Assembly: GCA_031272505.1 (NCBI GenBank)
Contig: JAISTQ010000022.1
Span: forward strand, 1 to 58,992
Source: Propionibacteriaceae bacterium
GTDB lineage: Bacteria > Actinomycetota > Actinomycetes > Propionibacteriales > Propionibacteriaceae
Direction: 5' to 3'
Length of the DNA: 58,992 bases
The notes beneath the pieces were generated by a model that was not told the DNA's origin, searched no databases, and was given only the letters and a program-made list of their open reading frames with translations. Shown piece after piece: positions 6,001 through 42,455 of this stretch. The first letter of the stretch is position 1. Each line of letters begins with the position of its first letter. The translations under genes and the position numbers were made by a program.

Positions 6001-8023
6001 AGACCCTGATGGTGTGGTACACGATGGTACTGAAGGGCAGGGGTGTTTCTTGTTCTGGTGCAAGAACTTCTTCGGTGAGTGGTATGCCTACGTTGAGGGC
6101 CCGAAGGTTGGTGATTGGGTTGCGAAAGTCGTGCCAGTGGGTTACTCGAGCGGTCGTTTGGGAGCGGCAGTAGCAGGGGAAAGCGTCAGGTTTAGCATCA
6201 CCACGGATTCTTCTGTTCTGCCGCTCGAAGTCTCTGGCACGGCCACAGTTGCGGGTTCAACTTGGGTTTTCAACACCGATCTCACGGAAGGCCAAAACGC
6301 CTCCTGGGTGTTCGCTGATAATCAGGTGCTCACGGGCGCAAGTGTTACCAGGCAAGCTATCGAAGGACAGCCACCGGTAGCGATCCTGACAGTCACAGAT
6401 GCAAGCGGCATGAGCGTGTCCGTCGACGTTGCTGCGGCAAGCGTTGACTTGAGGCCACAAATCCCGGTGATCGCCGAGCCGACGGTCGAAGGACTACAAG
6501 GGGATGGCCCCGTGCTGACTGGTGCGAGCCTTACAGTAACGATAGATGGATGGTTTGCTGATCCAACAACGGTCACCTACCAATGGTTGCGCGACGGGAT
6601 GCCTATCTCAGGTGAAACTGGCTCCAGCTACACAATCGGCGATGCAGACGCAGAGCATGAAATCTCCGTGAAGATGACCGCGACGTTCAGTGCCTACAGA
6701 GACTTCGTGTACACGAGTGATTCGATTGAGGTGCCACTGCAGCCCGCGCCCTCCTTCTCGCTGGCAATCAGCGGCACTCCGAAGGTCGGACTGATCCTTA
6801 CTGCGCTCACGTCTGGGGACAGCCTGGATGGCTGGACGAAGAGTTATCAGTGGTTGCGCGGTGGCGTGTCGATTCCTGGTGCCACCGGGTCTACCTACAC
6901 GGTGGTCGCGGACGACGCCGAGCGCAACCTTTCGGTGCAGCTCACCGTCAGTCGCGTCGGATACGTGGGCACGACCGTCATCAGTGAAACGGTCGCAGTG
7001 CCGAAGGTGGAGACTGAGCCGAGTCCGTCTCCGAGTCCAACGACGCCGCCGACGACGACTCCAACGACGACTCCGACGACCACTCCGACAACGACGCCTA
7101 CACCTACGCCGACTCCGACGTCGAACCCGACGCCGACCTCGTCGACCACTCCGACGCCTACGCCGACTCTGACGACGACTTCTTCTCCGTCGCCGAGCCC
7201 AAGTGATTCCAACCCGAAGCTCGACCCGACGCCGCCCGCAACCAAGCCGGTCGCCAAGGCAACGGATACCGACACGTTGACTTCGGGGAGCACGCTGAGC
7301 GCAGGAGAGACCCCGGCTGGGTGGGATGCGTCGTATCAGTGGTACCGCGACGGAGTTGCGATTCCGGGTGCCACCGGCGCCAACTACACGTTGACCACTG
7401 CCGACGTCGGCTCCAACGTGTCGCTGAAGGTGACGTTGACGCAGGCCGGATACGAGCCGTACGAGTACACTGCGGGCTCATTCTCGGTTCCAAAGAACAC
7501 TGTTAGCTTCAAGCCGAAACTCACTGGCACACTGAAGGTCGGCAAGACGCTCAAGGTCGGCTCACTTCCGAAGGGCTGGACGGTCAAGTACCAGTGGTTG
7601 CGCGACGGGAAGTCGATCAAGAAGGCGACCAAGGCGTCGTACAAGCTCACCGCTGCTGACGCCGGCCACAAGATCTCTGTGAAGGTCACGGCCTCAAAGG
7701 CTGGTTCGACGACCACGGTCAAGACATCGGCGGCGAAGAAAGCCGCCCAACTGACCGGCAAGCTGACCGCTAAGTTCGCAAAGTCGTCAATCAAGCCGGG
7801 CCAGAAGGTGAAGCTGACGGTCACCGTCAAGGCGACCGGGCTCAAGCCGTCGGGCACCTTGAAGGTCAAAGTCGGTTCCAAGACGTTCACCGGAAAGGTG
7901 AAGTCCGGCAAGGGCACGGTGAAGATCTCCGGGCTGAAGCAGGGCAAGTACAAGATCTCGATATCCTTCTCAGGCACCGAGGTCAAAGCCAAGACTGTGA
8001 AGGTGGCGCTTACCGTCAAGTAG
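2..8023 (+). CDS. Giant Ig-like repeat surface protein with SGNH-like domain (5' end outside window)
   Basis: The frame is open from the left edge, so the GTG at 104 is internal and the true start lies outside; at least 2,673 residues are present. In order there are about eight ~85-residue Ig-like modules (pattern GxxxVGexL ... GW ... YxW ... DG ... T-Y ... D-A-G-H ... V-x-V-T), two PKD domains with FGDG signatures (about 2423-2940), a carboxypeptidase-regulatory-like beta domain (about 2955-3230), a Cys/acidic stretch, beta-rich segments, an SGNH-hydrolase-like domain (about 4670-5870), two more Ig modules, a Thr/Pro linker, two further Ig modules and a Lys-rich C-terminal beta domain. No LPXTG motif or membrane anchor follows. 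It is probably secreted and wall-associated, as adhesin or scaffold; the specific ligand is unknown. The SGNH-like part lacks its expected catalytic residues (see findings). The architecture is seen directly; the role is inferred. Confidence 0.85.
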   Translation, partial: GTQTVDIEGVVPRETISGTAWVPEGRDPTSYFVYVTASQTHVEGSFSHYASQYLATDGTFSIPTYPGVNYTVSLRSYTYSDASTSIIQDGTVRTGYTHTIASGTEIELLRPAPSISFGVTGTARVGEQLSPSADTIAGAMALVAAGWDVSFQWGTDTDREPIEGAWLWAYTPTTTASVTLDFSATKEGYAPISKAYGPATVLPGFAVSFAPTLLGTPEVGETLSVEWDEDTEGWTAYYNWKRDGYSVGNGSTYELTAADAGHAISVSVTLSRPYYTSSTQTTASVDVPLLPGPEFTLGIDGSGRVGEQLEVTGIGGLIDEGWAASYKWYADGALLSGQTQSHYRPITTDLVTVEVTLTKLGHQSGTQITSTAITSGVAIEFTPAITGTVLHGETLAVSGLDEATSLGWLAAYEWQRDEEAITGADSATYTITGDDAGHELSVQVTLTRQYYDTSVATSASVEVPNRAPEFTVAATGSFRVGEELEAEATATIPGSLDEWTVSFQWLRGETQVGSGATYTPTTTDNITLRGTITREGYESRTVDAIYPISEGVFPGATLTISGTALGGNTLHASAAPSGWNASYQWLLDGSPITGATNSSYSVAYSDAEHDIAVTASYTRQYYQSGAATSASVSVPLHPAVSFVPHLESGYVAGDSVSLYNAIPEGWNASYQWMLDDEDIPGATSATYATSLTDTEKKLKVKVTLTRQYFESTTVTSNETTLLHPAPSVSVAISGQPTVGAAQSVSVTGVSLSDWHASYEWKLDGTVVGHSATYTPNAAGQLTVKVTFSRTNWLGTQAESAAVSITPNAAPTVSLDVPTAVNVTESFTVNITASDAEGSPLTYEVDFGDGSAKATGSYTSALSLTHSYPTAKSYLVSVTISDSLLKTVKIATTRAVLPSPLTSEISDISLAYATEPVAFDGSASSPSVLIDSYTWDFGDGQSATGKSVTHTYASEGDYSVILTVRSGDETDESSQVISVQKKPTVPGVRITVKNGDFLVSGAQAVIALPDGGKVTAISNSEGVATLFGIPDGTAAVDVWASGFQTVRAEVEVVDGSGQAVASLVSGSFAASTLSSHQLTFEEIVERGLDPDDPDNRWVFEAEIRVHFVVGEDGEEECDPEEEQCECEENCTPPNGDCKVTATPSGLFIECAGQPDRYFVPLGGWGGGGGTDSCLYQDPEECKPPPWDSHGVYPTYEVVEGIPIIEWLVIPVKGSFLKEFFDVTMVVQNLSNVATFTDGIATLDAPSGLSRMPVYGAGMASSETVSVPDIAPMSSESISWTLRGDAEGEYDISAQYNGVLSPFDAPFTLKAQLEEPLKVWAGSALELSVAVEPDIDRWAPFQVTLTLKNVSEGQQATTVHNLMIEMGERRVDAEDTDARYVWAPDTKHASGLIPSLAPGESVVLPGVLYAGIGTDFDQGLGKVLSEDLTPGYVTRMITDYGESSLAQVSGVEINIVQEVGQAPRTTTREPVFATLGSQMVDGEEHDYLQLWWEPVVGARSYKVYTLDKLVDYTWTELETTSETTVRFGPENASLGGYFTVLALTDDGWEPYYKLIPGAARYVSLGDGYASGEGVEEFENGTATDLAAFDERAINLIQDAARDLIMDTIGSLDVTDQVGDILEDVGLGANDNTCHRSFGSYGRLLAQDPEVREELSPALYAGCSGALLKDIYSENPAQINEPAQVDNLSQFTETVTLSAGASDVGLSDIFDLCFKMPEGICEADMVVDEFLGSAGYSSGWGSLWAVKVKATDIAEAVVDTAVDCLLEFKGTPAKAVKCLKSIVKLKKAMVSLMHYDLERVSSPAVLSSGVLRSRMVTALNHIVAKAPRAKVYVSTYPKYFDGSECPGSVIFTLPISKREVAKVNALIDLLNQEIVEAVHQFNLADGRSGTWVYVVSTDQEFESKRMCLNGERNEDTGFNPYILEYIDTWTTGYRSTTYSMYPNAEGQRALEKAFAKAIKDNNTVDVTLVPGEGAIQVFRVSTGVSSISARANGVPTGYKLILEDPDGVVHDGTEGQGCFLFWCKNFFGEWYAYVEGPKVGDWVAKVVPVGYSSGRLGAAVAGESVRFSITTDSSVLPLEVSGTATVAGSTWVFNTDLTEGQNASWVFADNQVLTGASVTRQAIEGQPPVAILTVTDASGMSVSVDVAAASVDLRPQIPVIAEPTVEGLQGDGPVLTGASLTVTIDGWFADPTTVTYQWLRDGMPISGETGSSYTIGDADAEHEISVKMTATFSAYRDFVYTSDSIEVPLQPAPSFSLAISGTPKVGLILTALTSGDSLDGWTKSYQWLRGGVSIPGATGSTYTVVADDAERNLSVQLTVSRVGYVGTTVISETVAVPKVETEPSPSPSPTTPPTTTPTTTPTTTPTTTPTPTPTPTSNPTPTSSTTPTPTPTLTTTSSPSPSPSDSNPKLDPTPPATKPVAKATDTDTLTSGSTLSAGETPAGWDASYQWYRDGVAIPGATGANYTLTTADVGSNVSLKVTLTQAGYEPYEYTAGSFSVPKNTVSFKPKLTGTLKVGKTLKVGSLPKGWTVKYQWLRDGKSIKKATKASYKLTAADAGHKISVKVTASKAGSTTTVKTSAAKKAAQLTGKLTAKFAKSSIKPGQKVKLTVTVKATGLKPSGTLKVKVGSKTFTGKVKSGKGTVKISGLKQGKYKISISFSGTEVKAKTVKVALTVK
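332..2422 (+). repeat. Array of eight Ig-like modules within the surface protein
   Basis: Eight degenerate in-frame repeats of about 80-90 codons. Each has a GxxxVGe strand, a GW(n)xxYxW core and a DAGHxIsV strand ending in VTLTRxYY. They have diverged in sequence, so recent slippage is unlikely. Four more modules of the same family lie at about 6460-7010 and 7255-7745. Confidence 0.8.
7011..7250 (+). repeat. Thr/Pro/Ser low-complexity linker
   Basis: The stretch encodes mainly PT, TT and SP di- and tripeptides from ACG, ACT, CCG and CCT codons. It separates Ig modules 10 and 11 and is probably an extended, wall-spanning linker that could be glycosylated. The triplet-like DNA may be prone to length variation. 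Confidence 0.8.
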
Positions 8024-9803: not shown

Positions 9804-9891
9804 TCGCTAACGCTCCCGCGTGTTTGACGCGCTCCAAATGCCTTCGGCATGTCGCGCGATGGATCCCCGAGCCTTCGGCTCGAGGATGACG
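9804..9891 (-). repeat. Structured dispersed repeat, copy A
   Basis: Read on the minus strand, the element starts CGTCATCCTCGAGCC and contains hairpin 1 (CGAGCC-GAA-GGCTCG), a spacer with GGGGATCC, then hairpin 2 (ATGCC-GAA-GGCAT), ending GGAGCGTTAGCGA. Length (88 bp) and layout match copies B and C although hairpin 2 differs in sequence. It is non-coding and no transposase is nearby. Confidence 0.65.
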
Positions 9892-9990: not shown

Positions 9991-10076
9991 TTCGCTTCGC
10001 TCAGGCACTCTTTGTCCTCCGAAGGCGCAAGGCGCCCGTCGGACTGGATCCCCGAGCCTTCGGCTCGAGGATGACG
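9991..10076 (-). repeat. Structured dispersed repeat, copy B
   Basis: Minus-strand copy with hairpin 1 (CGAGCC-GAA-GGCTCG), GGGGATCCAGTCCGACGG, hairpin 2 (GGCGC-CTT-GCGCC) and the end TGAGCGAAGCGAA. It shares about 40 bp of extra flank with copy A on the hairpin-1 side (CCAGCGGGGTGC ... TTGGGTTTCGGGCTGC), so A and B probably arose by a local duplication. Confidence 0.7.
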
Positions 10077-35680: not shown

Positions 35681-35767
35681 CGTCATCCTCGAGCCGCAGG
35701 CTCGGGGATCCAGTGCGACGGGTGCGGACGCACCTTCGGAGCACCAAGAACGCGTGAGCGAAGCGAA
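35681..35767 (+). repeat. Structured dispersed repeat, copy C
   Basis: Plus-strand copy of the element seen at 9804-9891 and 9991-10076: hairpin 1 (CGAGCC-GCA-GGCTCG), GGGGATCCAGTGCGACGG, hairpin 2 (GGTGCG-GA-CGCACC), end TGAGCGAAGCGAA. A shorter, degenerate hairpin of related style (GGAC-GAA-GTCC, about 35637-35652) lies just before it. Between this and the macrodomain gene nothing codes. Confidence 0.7.
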
Positions 35768-35770
35768 CGC

Positions 35771-35880
35771 CACACTCTTATGCACTCTTATGCACTCTTA
35801 TATGCTCTTAAGTGCTCTTAAGTTTTCTGATATGCTCTTAAGCAATCTGATACGGGCTGATACGCTCTGAAGCGGAGTGA
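35771..35880 (+). repeat. Eleven-unit, 10-bp phased tandem repeat
   Basis: Eleven consecutive 10-bp units follow without interruption, consensus roughly NNNGCTCTKA: four near-identical TRYRCTCTTA-like units, then AGTGCTCTTA, AGTTTTCTGA, TATGCTCTTA, AGCAATCTGA, TACGGGCTGA, TACGCTCTGA and AGCGGAGTGA. The period is not a multiple of three and there is no spacer, so it is neither coding nor CRISPR. It ends 18 bp before the ATPase start, which has its own GGAGG site, and begins 3 bp after repeat copy C. Confidence 0.8.
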
Positions 35881-35898
35881 TGGAGAGGAGGCAAAGCG

Positions 35899-36996
35899 AT
35901 GCCGGAAGATCGTTCGTTTGTGCCGGCTTTTGGAAACAAGCCAAGGCGGCTGGTTGGGCGTGATGAGGAGATCGCTGGTTTCTTGCGTGGGCTGGCGGGG
36001 CCGCCGGGGCATCGGGATCGCGCCACGTTGTGTCTGGGACAACGCGGCATGGGAAAGACGGCGCTGCTGTTGAAGTTCGCGGAATTGGCCGAAAGCCACG
36101 GGTTTGTGGCGGCGAAAGCGACAGCGGGGGTGGATCTGCTGGTGCAGTTGATCGAGGGCATCCAGGCCGCCGGATCGAAATACGTTCCGTCGAATCGCAG
36201 GTTTACCGGGGTGAGCGTGGGGGCGTTGGGGTTTTCCGTCGGGTTGAGTTTCACTGATGACACCGAGCGCAAGGCCAGTTTCCGGGCCAAGCTGTCGCTG
36301 CTCTGCCAGGCGTTGGAGAATCACGAGAAAGGCGTGCTGCTGCTGGTGGACGAGGTGACGGCCGACGATGAGCAGATCCGTCAGCTTGCCACCGCCTACC
36401 AGGAGTTGGTGGGGGAGGGGCGGAACATCGCGATTGCGATGGCTGGGCTGCCGGCGGCCGTGTCGTCGGTCTTGAACGATAAGGTGCTCACGTTTTTGAA
36501 TCGAGCTCGGAAGATACAGCTCGGCCCGTTGCCACTGGCGGACGTCACCGTCGATTATTTCAACACGTTCAAGGAGTTAGGCAAGTCGATCAGTGTTGAC
36601 GATCTGGGGCGCGCGGTCGCGGCGACGATGGGGTATCCGTATTTGTTGCAGTTGATCGGGTATTACCTTTTGGAGTTCACCGGCGCGGACAGCGAGATCT
36701 CCAGCGCCACGGTTGATCTGGCCATCAACACTTCGCGGACCGCGATGGTCGATGGCATCTTCACCCCGAGCCTGAGCCCGCTCTCGAAGCGTGATCGCGA
36801 ATTCCTCGAAGCCATGAGCCTTGATGACGAGACCAGCGACATCGCCGACATCACCCAGCGCCTCGGCGTCACCGCCGCCAGTGCCCAACAAACCCGCCGC
36901 CGCCTCATCGCCTCCGGCGTGATCATCCCGTCGGGCACCGGCCAACTCCAATACGCCCTCCCCTACTTGGGCCCATTTTTTCGCGGCACCCTGTAG
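35899..36996 (+). CDS. P-loop ATPase (archaeal-ATPase/Orc1-like family)
   Basis: 365 residues with a good GGAGG 8 nt upstream. Walker A is GQRGMGKT (residues 47-54), Walker B is LLLVDE (Asp151/Glu152), and a sensor-like AIAMAGLPAAV follows. A winged-helix-like C-terminal region (SDIADITQRLGVTAASAQQ and TRRRLIASGVIIPSGTG) suggests DNA binding. This layout is that of the ATPase_2/AAA family found in many gut and archaeal genomes, whose cellular role is poorly known. It has no neighbouring partner gene that is intact. The phased 10-bp repeat array directly upstream is a plausible control or binding region. Confidence 0.8.
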   Translation: MPEDRSFVPAFGNKPRRLVGRDEEIAGFLRGLAGPPGHRDRATLCLGQRGMGKTALLLKFAELAESHGFVAAKATAGVDLLVQLIEGIQAAGSKYVPSNRRFTGVSVGALGFSVGLSFTDDTERKASFRAKLSLLCQALENHEKGVLLLVDEVTADDEQIRQLATAYQELVGEGRNIAIAMAGLPAAVSSVLNDKVLTFLNRARKIQLGPLPLADVTVDYFNTFKELGKSISVDDLGRAVAATMGYPYLLQLIGYYLLEFTGADSEISSATVDLAINTSRTAMVDGIFTPSLSPLSKRDREFLEAMSLDDETSDIADITQRLGVTAASAQQTRRRLIASGVIIPSGTGQLQYALPYLGPFFRGTL

Positions 36997-37115
36997 CCGT
37001 CCTCCTCGAACACCTCCTCCAAAAGTGCCTCGACGACCCCGCCAACGCCCGCCGCTACGCGAGCCTCGTCCTGGACATCGACCCCACCAACACCGTCGCC
37101 CGCCAGTACTTGTAG
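36996..37115 (+). pseudogene. Remnant of a TPR-like coding sequence
   Basis: Directly after the ATPase stop, another frame reads AVLLEHLLQKCLDDPANARR, then YASLVLDIDPTNTVARQYL and a stop. The A-x2-Y-x3-VL-x-IDP-x-N pattern resembles a TPR helix pair. There is no start codon or upstream domain, so it is best seen as the 3' scrap of a lost gene. It could alternatively be chance reading of GC-rich DNA. Nothing else is seen up to 37187. Confidence 0.35.
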
Positions 37116-37187
37116 CTGCTACCTGGCATCAAGACAACTCCCACAACCCCTAGACCCAAAACTGAGTCACCGAAATCAACCTCCCGG

Positions 37188-38465: not shown

Positions 38466-38823
38466 TGCTCCTCCTATCAGTAGCCGTCGAGCCCCTGCGA
38501 CCCGACACCTCCCATTCTGCTCAGCCCCTCCGACATTTATCCCAGAAACACGCCCTGACAAGGGGAAACGTCAGCAGCGGGTGCGTTCCAACCCTGCAAA
38601 GACACTCCTTCCGCACCCGGCAACGCCAGCACCTCCTCGCCAACCCCAAGGTCAGAATTCGAGCGCCGGGGGAGGGTCAATGGTGAGCCGTCGTCGGCAG
38701 GCTTGACTGAAGATGACGATACTTGGGGTGTTATTGTCTGTGTTCCGGTTCCTGTGCTAAGAGCTTTCTCATAACCCGGTTTTGATCCGTCGTGGCCGTG
38801 GTGTCTTGTTGTACGCTGACGAC
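38466..38823. other. 358-bp intergenic region before the restriction-modification operon
   Basis: No convincing open reading frame, tRNA or terminator was seen on either strand. Its right end supplies the TACGCT box 6 nt before the methyltransferase ATG. The base composition falls towards the right, at the edge of the lower-GC restriction-modification segment. Confidence 0.5.
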
Positions 38824-40731
38824 ATGGTCACGCGCGCTCAGGTTCAGTTGCCGGGGACGGGACTGCCATCAGCCAGACCAGTACTCAAGTGGGCTGGCGG
38901 AAAGTCACAACTAGTACCTGAGCTGCTTGAGAGGGTTCCGCGAAGGTTCGGGAAGTACATCGAACCGTTCTTTGGAGGGGGCGCGCTCTTCTTTGCGCTA
39001 CAACCGGGGGCTGGTGTGATCGCGGACATTAACCCTGAGCTAGGCAATCTATATGTGGCGATACGCGACAATGTGGATGAAGTAATCCGGTACCTTGCTG
39101 CCCACAAGAACGAGGAGTCTCACTTCTACGAGGTGCGCTCGCAGGACTGGCAGTCGATGTCGTCGGCAGAAGCCGCAGCTCGCACCATCTTCCTGAACCG
39201 AACCTGCTTCAATGGTTTGTATCGCGTAAACAGGGCAGGAAGATTCAACGTCCCCTTCGGGGGCTACAAGAACCCAAGGATCTTGGATACGGACAACCTG
39301 TTCGCAGTCTCACAGAGCCTCCAGGGAGTACAGATCCTTGTCGGAGACTACAAGACAGTACTTGCCGGGCAGGCAAAGCCCGGGGATCTTGTCTTCCTTG
39401 ACCCTCCCTACTTGCCTGTCTCCGAATATTCAGATTTCAAGCGATACACCAAGGAGCAATTCTTCGAAGAGGATCATGTAGAACTTGCCGCAGAAGTGCG
39501 GCGTCTACACGAGCTTGGGTGCTTTGTCATCCTGACGAACTCCAATCATCCCCTTGTCCACGATCTATACAAGGGCTTTAGGATCGACGTCTTCCAAACC
39601 AAACGCCACATTTCCTCTCGTGCAGATCGCCGTAATGGTGAAGATGTCGTAGTCACCATCCCACCCAAACAGCGTTTCAGTCTCCGTCTCCTGCCTGAGC
39701 CGCTTGATGATCAGACCTTGTTGTTCCCAACTACTCGATTCATGGGCTCTAAGAGTAAGTTGCTCACCGACATTTGGTCTGTCGCAAGCCAGTTCGACTA
39801 CCAGAACGTTGTTGACCTCTTCGCAGGCTCGGGCATCGTCTCGTACATGTTCAAGGCCAAAGGTAAGAACGTCCTTGCCAACGACTACATGGCTTTTAGT
39901 GCCAACACCGCCAAGGCTCTTGTGGAGAACAGCTGCGAGACACTTCCGATTGCCAAAGCTAAGCAGCTCGTGAGCACACGCTTTGACAATGATAGCTTCG
40001 TAGAAACCACCTTTGCCGGGCTCTATTACACCGACGAAGACAATCGGTTCATCGATTCAATGCGGGCAGGGATTTCCAAGATTCGCAACCCGCATCAACG
40101 GGCTATCGCCATGGCAGCTCTCATCCGCGCTTGTTTGAAGAAGCGCCCACGGGGGATCTTCACTTACACAGGTACTCGGTACGACGATGGTCGGCGAGAT
40201 CTTCAAATCTCGTTTGCCGAGCATTTCCTTGAGGCTGTACAACTGCTGAATGCTGCCGTTTTCGATAATGGAGGGCTCTCCTGGTCGCGGTTGGGGGATG
40301 CGATGGCAGTCCCGACTAAGGAAGACGCTCTTGTGTACATCGACCCGCCGTACTATTCGCCTCTATCGGACAACGAGTATGTCAGGCGCTATCATTTCGT
40401 CGAAGGTTTGGCCAGAGACTGGCAGGGTGTTGAGATCCAGCGGCACACCTTGACGAAGAAGTTCAAGTCGTATCCGACGCCGTTCTCGTCCCGAACTGGG
40501 GCACATGAGGCTTTTGATCGGCTCTTCAGGCGTCATCGCAACTCAGTGTTGGTGGTGTCTTACTCTTCGAACTCGCTTCCTACTTTGGATGAGATGGTTA
40601 CCTTGATGAGCAGACACAAACGGCACGTAGAAGTCATCCCCGTCAATCACAGGTACTCGTTCGGAAACCAAGCCCACAAGGTTGGCAACAACCGGAACGA
40701 AGTGCTTGAGTACTTGTTTGTAGGATTCTGA
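38824..40731 (+). CDS. Double D12-class DNA adenine methyltransferase (M.FokI-like fusion)
   Basis: 635 residues made of two complete adenine-N6 methyltransferase domains in tandem. The first has VLKWAGGKSQL (AdoMet site), EPFFGGGALFF and FLDPPYLP (DPPY, Asp193). The second has TRFMGSKSKLL, VVDLFAGSGIVSYMF (Asp331) and YIDPPYYSPL (Asp507). Such fusions are typical of type IIS systems with an asymmetric site, where each half methylates one strand, as in M.FokI. The ATG follows TACGCT by 6 nt. The stop overlaps the nuclease start by one base (TGATG). The lower GC than the flanks and the accessory setting point to horizontal acquisition. Confidence 0.9.
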   Translation: MVTRAQVQLPGTGLPSARPVLKWAGGKSQLVPELLERVPRRFGKYIEPFFGGGALFFALQPGAGVIADINPELGNLYVAIRDNVDEVIRYLAAHKNEESHFYEVRSQDWQSMSSAEAAARTIFLNRTCFNGLYRVNRAGRFNVPFGGYKNPRILDTDNLFAVSQSLQGVQILVGDYKTVLAGQAKPGDLVFLDPPYLPVSEYSDFKRYTKEQFFEEDHVELAAEVRRLHELGCFVILTNSNHPLVHDLYKGFRIDVFQTKRHISSRADRRNGEDVVVTIPPKQRFSLRLLPEPLDDQTLLFPTTRFMGSKSKLLTDIWSVASQFDYQNVVDLFAGSGIVSYMFKAKGKNVLANDYMAFSANTAKALVENSCETLPIAKAKQLVSTRFDNDSFVETTFAGLYYTDEDNRFIDSMRAGISKIRNPHQRAIAMAALIRACLKKRPRGIFTYTGTRYDDGRRDLQISFAEHFLEAVQLLNAAVFDNGGLSWSRLGDAMAVPTKEDALVYIDPPYYSPLSDNEYVRRYHFVEGLARDWQGVEIQRHTLTKKFKSYPTPFSSRTGAHEAFDRLFRRHRNSVLVVSYSSNSLPTLDEMVTLMSRHKRHVEVIPVNHRYSFGNQAHKVGNNRNEVLEYLFVGF

Positions 40732-42455
40732 TGGCCGAACTGAGCTTCCCTGTCCGCGTTAGGCCATGGCATCTCGCAAACACTACCGTTAGAAACCCCG
40801 GCAGGCTTCAAGCGGGGCTTAGAGCCTTAATAGATCGCGGCTATGCAGGCAATATGAATAGGGATATGGAGGAGAAGATTGCTCGTGCACTGCATGAAGA
40901 GAGCATCATTTCGCTCTCGGACAGCACGAAGGATGTCACCTCGATCGCCCGGAAGTGGCGGAGCGCATTGGTGCAACTCGGATTCTTATGGCCCGATGTG
41001 GATATGCGACCAAGAATCCGTGACGTTCGCCAGAGCGAATTAGGCGCTGCATTTACGCTGACACCCAACGGCGAAAGACTTTTAGAGGCCCAGTCATTTC
41101 TCGGTGTGCAAGAAGTGCTACTTAGATCGATTGCGGCGCTGACTCTCCCTAGCCCACTGGAACCAGCCTACGACTTTTCGCCGTTCTCTCCGCTGCGGCA
41201 CGTGATTCGAATCATTAGGGAGCTAGAACGATCCGGGAATGGACGGTTCCTGACTCGACTGGAGATTGCTTCGATTGTCATATTCTCCGTCGGAAGTGAC
41301 CGGCTTGACAGCGTTGTGAAGAAGATTATACGGCAGAGAGACGAGCGTGCTATAGTGATAGGGAAGCGACGTTTCGAATCGGAGACAATTGAAACGAAAG
41401 CGGGATCCACAGGCAACAAGCGTCAAACTCTTTACGACTATCAGGATGTAGTCTGTCGCTACTTGAAGGCCACTGGCCTTTTCCAATCCTGTGGCAGGGG
41501 AATTGAGCTAGCTCCCGAACTAGAGGCAGCGGCCAAGTCATTGGCGGACGAGCCTGACGAACAGTTGCCAAGAGTCGAGTATCTCGTCCGTCTTGCTAAT
41601 GGGTCTGCATTGCCGACCGATACTCTCGCAGGAGCGGTAGGAGTTTTAGATGGCCTGCTCGACATCGCATCCGATTCAGGAGTTTCCTTCGACAGTGCTG
41701 GTTACGATCTCAGTACTACTGAAGGATTATCGCTAGCTCGCCACGATCTTCTTGATCTCGTCTTCCAGCAGAAGGAGCTTGAGTACTCCAAGAATCAACG
41801 CAACAAGATGGAAGAGATTCTGGCTTATCTCCGCATGTTGGACGAGGGGAAAGACAAGATTAAACTTGCTGGTGAGCAACTGACAATACCCAAAGCTGAA
41901 CGAGCGGCATATTTCGAATGGTTGTTGTGGCGGGTGCTGCTCGCGCTGAATCAGCTCGAGGTACCTCCGGATAAGGTGCGACGGTTCAACGCTGACAATG
42001 ATTTCCTGCCGATAGGTACCGCTCCAGGCGGGGGTGCAGATGTGATCGGCGTGTACCGCGACTCAGTGATCGTAGTGGAAGTCACTCTCACGTCTGGATC
42101 CCGCCAAGTAGCAGCAGAGGGTGAACCCGTCAGACGACACGTCGCCGATGTACTAGAAAAGTATGAGCCATTGGGCAAAGCCGTCTATGGGCTCTTTATC
42201 GCTAGGCAAATCGACACTAATACCGCTGAGACCTTCAGGACGAGCGTCTGGTACAAGCACAACGACGAGAGGGTTGTACTAAGCATTGTGCCGCTCACCC
42301 TGCGTCAACTCATAGTGGTGTTGGAGCGCGGTGTCAAGAAGGGAAACTTGGAGCCGTCACTACTGATCGATACTATCGTGGAGCTGGCGGAGTTGCGAGC
42401 CGACACCGATGGAGCCCCGGATTGGAAGGAGAAGATCGAGAAGCGGTTGAGCTGA
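40731..42455 (+). CDS. Type IIS restriction endonuclease, AlwI/FokI-like
   Basis: 574 residues. It has an N-terminal and central helical DNA-recognition part with winged-helix-like segments (FLTRLEIASIVIFSVGSDRL, TLYDYQDVVCRYLKATGLF). In the C-terminal third lies a PD-(D/E)xK-like core: PGGGADVIGVYRDSVIVVEV with Asp437 and Glu450 followed by VT, where many family members have xK. The nearby SGSRQ and GEPVRRHV motifs resemble the AlwI-type family as I remember it. Position after a double adenine methyltransferase, with a one-base overlap, supports a type IIS restriction-modification pair. The recognition site cannot be read from the sequence; GGATC (AlwI) or GGATG (FokI) would be first guesses. 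Confidence 0.78.
   Translation: MAELSFPVRVRPWHLANTTVRNPGRLQAGLRALIDRGYAGNMNRDMEEKIARALHEESIISLSDSTKDVTSIARKWRSALVQLGFLWPDVDMRPRIRDVRQSELGAAFTLTPNGERLLEAQSFLGVQEVLLRSIAALTLPSPLEPAYDFSPFSPLRHVIRIIRELERSGNGRFLTRLEIASIVIFSVGSDRLDSVVKKIIRQRDERAIVIGKRRFESETIETKAGSTGNKRQTLYDYQDVVCRYLKATGLFQSCGRGIELAPELEAAAKSLADEPDEQLPRVEYLVRLANGSALPTDTLAGAVGVLDGLLDIASDSGVSFDSAGYDLSTTEGLSLARHDLLDLVFQQKELEYSKNQRNKMEEILAYLRMLDEGKDKIKLAGEQLTIPKAERAAYFEWLLWRVLLALNQLEVPPDKVRRFNADNDFLPIGTAPGGGADVIGVYRDSVIVVEVTLTSGSRQVAAEGEPVRRHVADVLEKYEPLGKAVYGLFIARQIDTNTAETFRTSVWYKHNDERVVLSIVPLTLRQLIVVLERGVKKGNLEPSLLIDTIVELAELRADTDGAPDWKEKIEKRLS

Follow-up and report, generated by a model that had tools for sequence, protein, structure and literature searches.

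Tandem arrays of short direct repeats precede many genes of an AAA_16 ATPase family and may serve as operators of the adjacent gene

Several parts of the system described here are known from bacteria: AAA_16 ATPases, winged helices on direct repeats, and arrays around the promoters of partition operons. Their combination was found on contig JAISTQ010000022.1 of a Propionibacteriaceae bacterium (assembly GCA_031272505.1; 2.23 Mb in 67 contigs), where an array of eleven 10-bp units lies directly upstream of a gene for an AAA_16 ATPase with a putative C-terminal winged helix. The whole stretch analysed, of 58,992 nucleotides, is referred to as the window. The combination, occurring family-wide with changing repeat words, seems undescribed; a full-text literature search, with most subscription-journal papers outside its scope, turned up no account of arrays like these upstream of comparable AAA ATPases. 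Among known systems, BldC is a 68-residue MerR-like regulator of Streptomyces with multiple targets, and the available passages of its paper describe a winged helix that binds direct repeats in varying number, cooperatively, directionally and head to tail, at 9 bp per protomer (PMC5859096). Like those of BldC, the ATPase arrays are directional direct repeats of about 9 bp, apparently for a winged helix; their unrestricted lags peak at 9-10 bp and show no inverted excess. They differ from BldC in that their putative winged helix is part of an AAA_16 ATPase, and in that no array turned up anywhere but at its own gene. RdfS, an oligomeric winged-helix excision factor, forms a left-handed superhelical filament (PMC11963761); it has the winged helix in common with the window ATPase but, in the text available, neither an ATPase domain nor an apparent consensus motif. 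The mycobacterial signal transduction ATPase IniR, of 818 amino acids (aa), has an AAA+ domain likened to SSO1545, a MalT-like middle domain and a C-terminal DNA-binding domain, and acts on the iniBAC promoter (PMC5760070). It resembles the window ATPase in joining an AAA+ ATPase to a C-terminal DNA-binding domain, whereas the passages at hand from that paper do not mention a tandem array, and the window protein, at 365 aa, has neither the MalT-like middle domain nor a length of about 818 aa. The window protein gave no NCBIfam IniR match at E up to 0.1, and one of the seven members of set A1 matched at 1.8e-8. In ParR/parC and StbA/stbDRs, direct repeats of 9 to 20 bp surround the promoter of an operon that includes a gene for an ATPase or motor (PMC9426499, PMC3098194). 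According to the parts of both papers available, these use a separate DNA-binding protein and ATPases unrelated to the AAA_16 window protein, and a demonstrated role in plasmid maintenance sets them apart from the window system. We propose, at a probability of about 0.7, that the array serves as an operator to which the winged helix of the ATPase encoded behind it would bind cooperatively, and that the two would form a portable one-gene unit with autoregulation.

The window array comprises eleven uninterrupted units, each exactly 10 bp long, and ends 18 bp before the ATG at 35899 (Table 1). The initial annotation had claimed this extent and distance, together with near-identical early units and diverging later ones, and the sequence confirms it on each count: units 2 and 3 are identical and divergence grows afterwards. 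With the units in a register ending in CTCTTA, columns 8 (T) and 10 (A) are invariant (11/11), column 7 is C in 10/11 and column 6 is T in 9/11. The self-match at lag 10 amounts to 67/100 positions, the top lag-10 stretch anywhere in the window; 2000 mononucleotide shuffles (maximum taken over lags 5-20) averaged 33.5 and reached at most 45.54 per 100. Tandem Repeats Finder (TRF) called 2.9 perfect copies at 35773-35801 and periods of 20 and 30 bp reaching 35852; its calls stop short of the last, most diverged units. The chain finder used for the homologs counts 8 of the 11 units, and therefore undercounts.

Table 1. Positions of the array, the ATPase gene and other features of the window
Feature	Position	Strand	Basis
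Eleven-unit array (10 bp per unit), core CTCT(T/G)A(A/T)(G/A)	35771..35880	+	sequence, TRF, self-match
Array units 1-6 in order: CACACTCTTA TGCACTCTTA TGCACTCTTA TATGCTCTTA AGTGCTCTTA AGTTTTCTGA	within 35771..35880	+	
Array units 7-11 in order: TATGCTCTTA AGCAATCTGA TACGGGCTGA TACGCTCTGA AGCGGAGTGA	within 35771..35880	+	
18-bp leader with Shine-Dalgarno-like GAGAGGAGG	35881..35898	+	sequence
AAA_16 ATPase with C-terminal winged helix (putative), 365 aa	35899..36996	+	PF13191, 42.1 bits vs cut-off 32.6
Walker A GQRGMGKT, residues 47-54	36037..36060	+	alignment of 45 homologs
Walker B LLLVDE, residues 147-152	36337..36354	+	alignment of 45 homologs
C-terminal winged-helix region (predicted), residues 288-365	36760..36993	+	profile of 58 homologs; sequence evidence
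Presumed recognition helix TAASAQQTRRRL, residues 325-336	36871..36906	+	helix assignment inferred from alignment
Short codon-biased frame	36998..37116		by eye
REP-like palindromic element, copy 1	35682..35711	+	
REP-like palindromic element, copy 2	9861..9890	-	
REP-like palindromic element, copy 3	10046..10075	-	
D12-class adenine methyltransferase and AlwI-type restriction endonuclease	38782..42455		
Tandem repeats, periods 12, 18, 24 and 54 bp	7032..7180		

Regarding the physical meaning of the period, the initial annotation had placed all units on one face of the helix, which holds only in part. Ten 10-bp steps make 9.52 turns at 10.5 bp per turn, so that over the length of the window array, in relaxed B-DNA, the units shift around the helix by roughly half a turn, and the mean step of about 9.6 bp across the homologs (38 arrays) rules out exact same-face phasing; the sites would spiral. 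Intrinsic curvature, also raised there, is unlikely as a general cause: the window array has one run of four A or T (TTTT), and A-tracts are seen in some homologs (AGGAAAAAAAGG) and are by eye absent from most. A structured RNA leader or riboswitch was ruled out by an RNA fold that is not unusual (z 0.32; 124/200 shuffles fold equally well) and by the lack of any Rfam match. The best reading is that the array would be bound cooperatively by protein. Just upstream of it lies one of three window copies, with at most one mismatch, of a dispersed palindromic element, GTCATCCTCGAGCCGCAGGCTCGGGGATCC, that is similar to repetitive extragenic palindromic (REP) elements.

Homologous loci were the best matches from each search (at most 30) and are no random sample, and homolog start codons were picked by a heuristic. 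L032, L033, L034 and the pattern loci L007-L011 had been excluded at the outset; dropped were L012, L046 and L072 (start not found), L026, L028, L031 and L062 (N-terminus missing in the match) and L048 (too little upstream DNA), arrays being visible by eye in L026, L031 and L072. After fragments were dropped and duplicates collapsed, 89 distinct homologs remained, and the 140 bp before each start were analysed. Scores split them into 60 closer homologs (group A, of which sets A3 and A4 comprise 58 and 45 members) and 29 distant ones of about 400 aa (group B). The controls were 59 stretches 500-640 bp upstream and, as a second set, 190 upstreams of other genes. Over the 89 homologs, 5-mer recurrence reaches 176 at lag 9, 387 at lag 10, 98, 255 and 205 at lags 18-20, 53, 53, 79 and 104 at lags 27-30, 75 at lag 38 and 68 at lag 40, against 10-24 in dinucleotide shuffles, and there is no peak at lag 11, 12 or 21; the control stretches show a three-base coding rhythm alone (for instance 49 at lag 9, 53 at 12 and 15 at 10). 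Pooled spacings in group A peak at 9-10, 19-20, 29-30, 38, 40 and 49-50 bp, with 165, 307, 243, 180, 96, 63 and 43 recurrences at lags 9, 10, 19, 20, 30, 40 and 50 and control values of 33, 12, 7, 2, 19, 7 and 15. The units of a group A array all point one way, and the pooled lags carry no inverted-repeat excess.

The expectation that decamer arrays precede related ATPase genes is borne out by the closer homologs, 37/60 of which have a chain of at least four phased units, compared with 2/59 control stretches (Fisher p 1.5e-12). Before other genes such chains were counted in 7/190 cases, two of them homolog arrays met again, which leaves 5/188 (p 6.7e-23), and in strictly intergenic upstreams of other genes in 0/35; 34/60 group A upstreams pass their own shuffles at 1 in 60. 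Chains of four are also found in L174-L177, among seven further distinct plasmid members, and in L111, whose control stretch likewise has four, while the alphaproteobacterial homologs L161 and L160 have chains of three and two. In 38 arrays the steps are of 10 bp (90), 9 bp (53), 8 bp (10) and 11 bp (6), the chain finder allowing steps of 8-11 bp only; by its count they hold 3 to 9 units, and the array ends a median of 20.5 bp before the start codon. L105 and L111 carry closely similar Bifidobacterium-type arrays of TTTTTTAGA words, with about four base differences in total and by eye no whole-unit difference, and a Bifidobacterium breve query against plasmid records, made for a close-strain comparison of unit numbers, matched its own record alone. 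A copy-number switch, as raised in the initial annotation, was not seen in these loci, among which there was no set of strains. In group B, direct lag 10 dominates (80 vs 3) with a small lag 20 (25 vs 5), and 1/29 members passes the shuffle test on the chain statistic. Certain group B members appear to rely on pairs of inverted sites rather than on extended arrays; inverted sites were rejected as a rule for the group, being seen by eye in single members (e.g. L021) with no clear peak in the pooled inverted spectrum. Upstream of the group B paralog L005, an inverted block of GTATAG words 10 bp apart is present in two copies about 100 bp apart.

The repeat word changes from gene to gene. In the window it is CTCTTAWG; the group A paralogs of the same genome have GTAAATAG, GCAAAG, and GGTAAAG or TGTGTAA, two members of this genome differing as CTCTTAAG and GTAAATAG, and other homologs have AGGAAA, CTTAGA, GTTTAAG, GATGAAG, TATAC and others. 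By clade, AGGAAA is paired with DYAQKYR, GATGAA with DHGYVSRYR and CTTAGA with (S/A)QVAQYR. By eye, plasmid-type members pair a VANYR helix with CTCACA (L066, L174, L175) and V(A/S)KYRNRL with TTCACC (L106, L176, L177), and L107 has helix VGNYR with the words GTTCAC and GTACAC. In Mantel tests on 58 arrays (L015 and L088 omitted for lack of a usable C-terminus), the recognition helix is the part of the protein that tracks the word best and is significant in every version. The first, un-normalised test gave rho -0.15 (p 0.013) for this helix and -0.07 (p 0.16) for the ATPase domain. With word similarity normalised by self-similarity (3000 permutations, p floor 0.0003), the 58 arrays gave p 0.037 for the winged helix, 0.002 for the recognition helix and 0.16 for the ATPase domain, and the 49 arrays scoring at least 2.4 gave 0.016, 0.0007 and 0.069, respectively. 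At a score of at least 3 (36 arrays), winged helix and recognition helix reach rho -0.36 and -0.37 (both p 0.0003, the floor) and the ATPase domain p 0.06; the winged helix keeps -0.355 (p 0.0003) given the ATPase domain, and the ATPase domain has p 0.88 given the winged helix. At a score of at least 4 (24 arrays), the winged helix has -0.43 (p 0.0003) and the ATPase domain -0.19 (p 0.006), but p 0.66 given the winged helix. Selected orthogonality of paralogs within one genome found no support, mean similarity being 0.444 in 16 same-genome pairs and 0.430 in 1078 others.

In the source genome, all five places matching three units with at most 3 mismatches lie inside the array; with two units and 2 mismatches, 8/14 places do, and the 6 outside compare with 13 for a reversed-pattern control. 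Searches with the word of the respective genome found the array solely before its own gene in G900 (8/8 places), G1036 (3/3) and G909 (4/4), and no place was found in G982 with the word of G1036. In viral_contigs the two-unit window-word pattern has 37 stretches, by our estimate about chance for so large a collection. These results bear on an alternative reading in which a separate host regulator, not the ATPase, uses the array as its operator. In favour of such a regulator, binding by the ATPase itself is a prediction; the word, on the other hand, differs between paralogs within a genome and follows the winged helix that the adjacent gene encodes, over and above the ATPase domain of that gene, and the source genome is without a second array at the mismatch limits searched, so that we regard a separate regulator as quite improbable.

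The operator reading, with the array belonging to the gene behind it, is consistent with what related loci share. In the plasmid pair L174/L175 the alignable DNA begins at the array, 51 bp before the ATG; over array and leader the two plasmids agree in 50/50 bp, the alignable block including the gene is 83.5% identical, and similarity upstream of the array is at chance level (5-12/25 per block). In L004/L027, L075/L076, L076/L077 and L069/L070 the main alignment begins 28-78 bp before the start codon, and L083/L085 and L086/L097 give separate alignments for array and gene start; unlike these shared-boundary pairs, L098/L109 and L176/L177 are similar across the whole stretch read. The idea that array and ATPase form one self-contained unit thus gains from arrays before many homologs, from the uniqueness of the array in the genome at the limits searched, and from several relative pairs whose alignable DNA begins at or near the array. 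The same data make it very improbable that the array is a phase-variable or non-functional tandem repeat made by slippage: two adjacent window units are identical and unit number differs between homologs, as that explanation would have it, but different words with the same spacing stand before many homologs, and the array and leader of L174/L175 are better conserved than their alignable block as a whole.

The window protein passes the AAA_16 gathering score and has both Walker motifs. Residues G47, R49, G50, G52, K53 and T54 of Walker A and D151 and E152 of Walker B are invariant in the 45 aligned homologs, and AAA_16 is matched by 45/45 A4 homologs at E up to 0.5. Assignment to ATPase_2 (PF01637), as earlier assumed, is not supported: the window protein reaches 19 bits, below the cut-off of 33.2. 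Of the homologs, 33/45 match this family at E up to 0.5. The winged-helix-like C-terminus noted earlier stands: it looks like a winged helix resembling winged-helix regulators, and the PDB matches of a profile of 58 C-termini are headed by transcriptional regulators (best E 0.00057); the 52 sequences matched at E up to 5 include a few unrelated ones. HTH_24 matches 17/45 members and MarR_2 14/45 at E up to 0.5. Among the PADLOC anti-phage profiles no family matched the window protein at E up to 1, and the 45 homologs gave weak scattered matches, most often to mad8 (13, best E 0.00032), the best of all being SngB (6.7e-6). An AAA+ domain joined to a winged helix, together with weak hits against the Orc1/Cdc6 (5/7 members, best E 0.001) and Hda (4/7, best E 0.00038) profiles and against DnaX and DnaA chains in the PDB, recalls a replication or loading site, with the ATPase as an Orc1/Cdc6- or DnaA-like loader and the array as an iteron origin. 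This is highly unlikely: the Orc1/Cdc6 match of the window protein has 14.4 bits against a cut-off of 181.3, the family occurs patchily, and the array directly precedes the gene's own Shine-Dalgarno. Behind the ATPase gene and out of its frame lies a short frame that by eye resembles the decayed tail of another gene; its in-frame translation, alone scanned, has no Pfam match.

The distribution of the family is patchy. The source genome has six members including the window ATPase, and matches at E 1e-3 occur in 16/30 genomes of the genus and 75/147 of the family, at E 1e-40 in 6/393 genomes of the class and 15/293 of the order, and with a seven-member profile at E 1e-60 in 17/396 genomes of the phylum. 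L039, on a contig of a Propionibacteriaceae metagenome-assembled genome, and L036 (G024, same genus) have the same upstream and gene-start sequence. Homologs were found on 72/72,556 plasmid records and on 0/50,697 phage records. Presence on plasmids is what would be expected of a centromere-like or maintenance site, where ATPase and array would segregate or anchor a replicon as in ParR/parC or StbA/stbDRs, with autoregulation secondary; in R388, the source passages describe two sets of five 9-bp repeats with 2-nt spacing around the stbABC promoter (PMC3098194). We nevertheless consider this unlikely. Six members reside in one genome, and 52/60 group A members come from genome assemblies and 8/60 from plasmid records, although some assembly contigs may be plasmids. 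At the eight plasmid loci (flanks up to 6 kb), the named neighbours that recur next to the ATPase are generic: helix-turn-helix proteins, ParA-family genes (L103, L107) and IS3 transposases (L105, L108). Judged by product names, an adaptor gene does not recur; the comparison covered named proteins only. The ParA-family genes on L103 and L107, with a ParB gene too on L103, indicate that these plasmids have other partition genes. The ATPase matches AAA_16 and not an actin-like or ParA family, so that the ParMRC/ParABS arrangement of such an ATPase with a separate adaptor gene is not seen. The Arthrobacter plasmids L106 and L175 each carry an opposite-strand DUF4193 gene a short way downstream of the ATPase. 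On the Sphingobium plasmid pTomMM15b (L160), a distant homolog has a gene for a conjugative relaxase on one side and one for a B3 metallo-beta-lactamase on the other.

Returning to the cooperative operator, we envisage that one C-terminal winged helix would read each unit. Same-direction units at steps of 8-11 bp fit one head-to-tail protomer per unit, like BldC, and since the 9.6-bp step falls short of a full turn of 10.5 bp, they would wind around the helix and not share one face; neighbouring protomers every 9-10 bp would assemble cooperatively into a gently left-handed row. Spanning promoter and leader, this row would set, and most likely repress, expression of its own gene, since protein bound at the median distance from the start codon would cover the message start and in some cases the promoter. 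A looser promoter scan gave candidates in 27/38 upstreams, whose start site lies inside the array in 16, downstream in 9 and upstream in 2. Assembly would be governed by ATP binding or hydrolysis in the AAA+ domain; the invariant residues of both Walker motifs lead us to expect a role for ATP, probably in assembly. Array and ATPase would act as a portable one-gene unit, in genome assemblies and on plasmids. The array, its recurrence, polarity and spacing, the co-variation of word and winged helix, the uniqueness in the genomes searched and the boundary common to some relatives are observed; ATPase binding to the array, cooperativity, repression and the role of ATP are inferred.

Several observations weigh against this proposal. 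The initial annotation had named homologs without an array as grounds for rejecting the link, and a minority is of this kind: 10/60 closer homologs score chains of two or fewer, and the unit pair seen by eye in about seven of these is alone at chance level. Chains of three arise by chance (16/59 controls vs 50/60 group A), and three of the seven further plasmid members (L178, L179, L181) score only two. A strict-consensus promoter scan found no site near the window array. The window gene (L001) does not align over the array with its relatives L036 and L040, which resemble it there by word alone; with L036 it aligns at the gene start, and with L040 it gives just a 10-base chance match. In the first Mantel test the winged helix had rho -0.06 (p 0.23), and in the normalised test on 58 arrays its partial value given the ATPase domain was p 0.056; normalisation and score cut-offs were picked after the first test, the significance of the whole winged helix came with them, and Mantel tests leave some common-descent effects in place. 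A bolder extension, tentative and rather doubtful, is an undescribed widespread class of portable one-gene systems, in which the AAA+ ATPase would assemble under ATP control into a filament at its own promoter, on an array that is private and specific to its clade. Besides being an operator, this array would nucleate a nucleoprotein filament with a job of its own, such as sensing or sequestering incoming DNA or stabilising the carrier element.

Elsewhere in the window, a D12-class adenine methyltransferase gene and an AlwI-type restriction endonuclease gene stand side by side as a restriction-modification system. The periods of a further tandem repeat region (Table 1) are all multiples of 6, which makes a coding repeat likely.

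For the family, the arrays mean that barely characterised actinobacterial "ATP-binding proteins" gain a testable function, each seemingly accompanied by a written binding site of its own. With their differing words, the dozens of pairs of protein and array would constitute a natural specificity data set for a winged helix. The tandem arrangement at 9-10 bp predicts an ATP-controlled protein row on DNA, and the unit is small enough to be tested in one reporter experiment.
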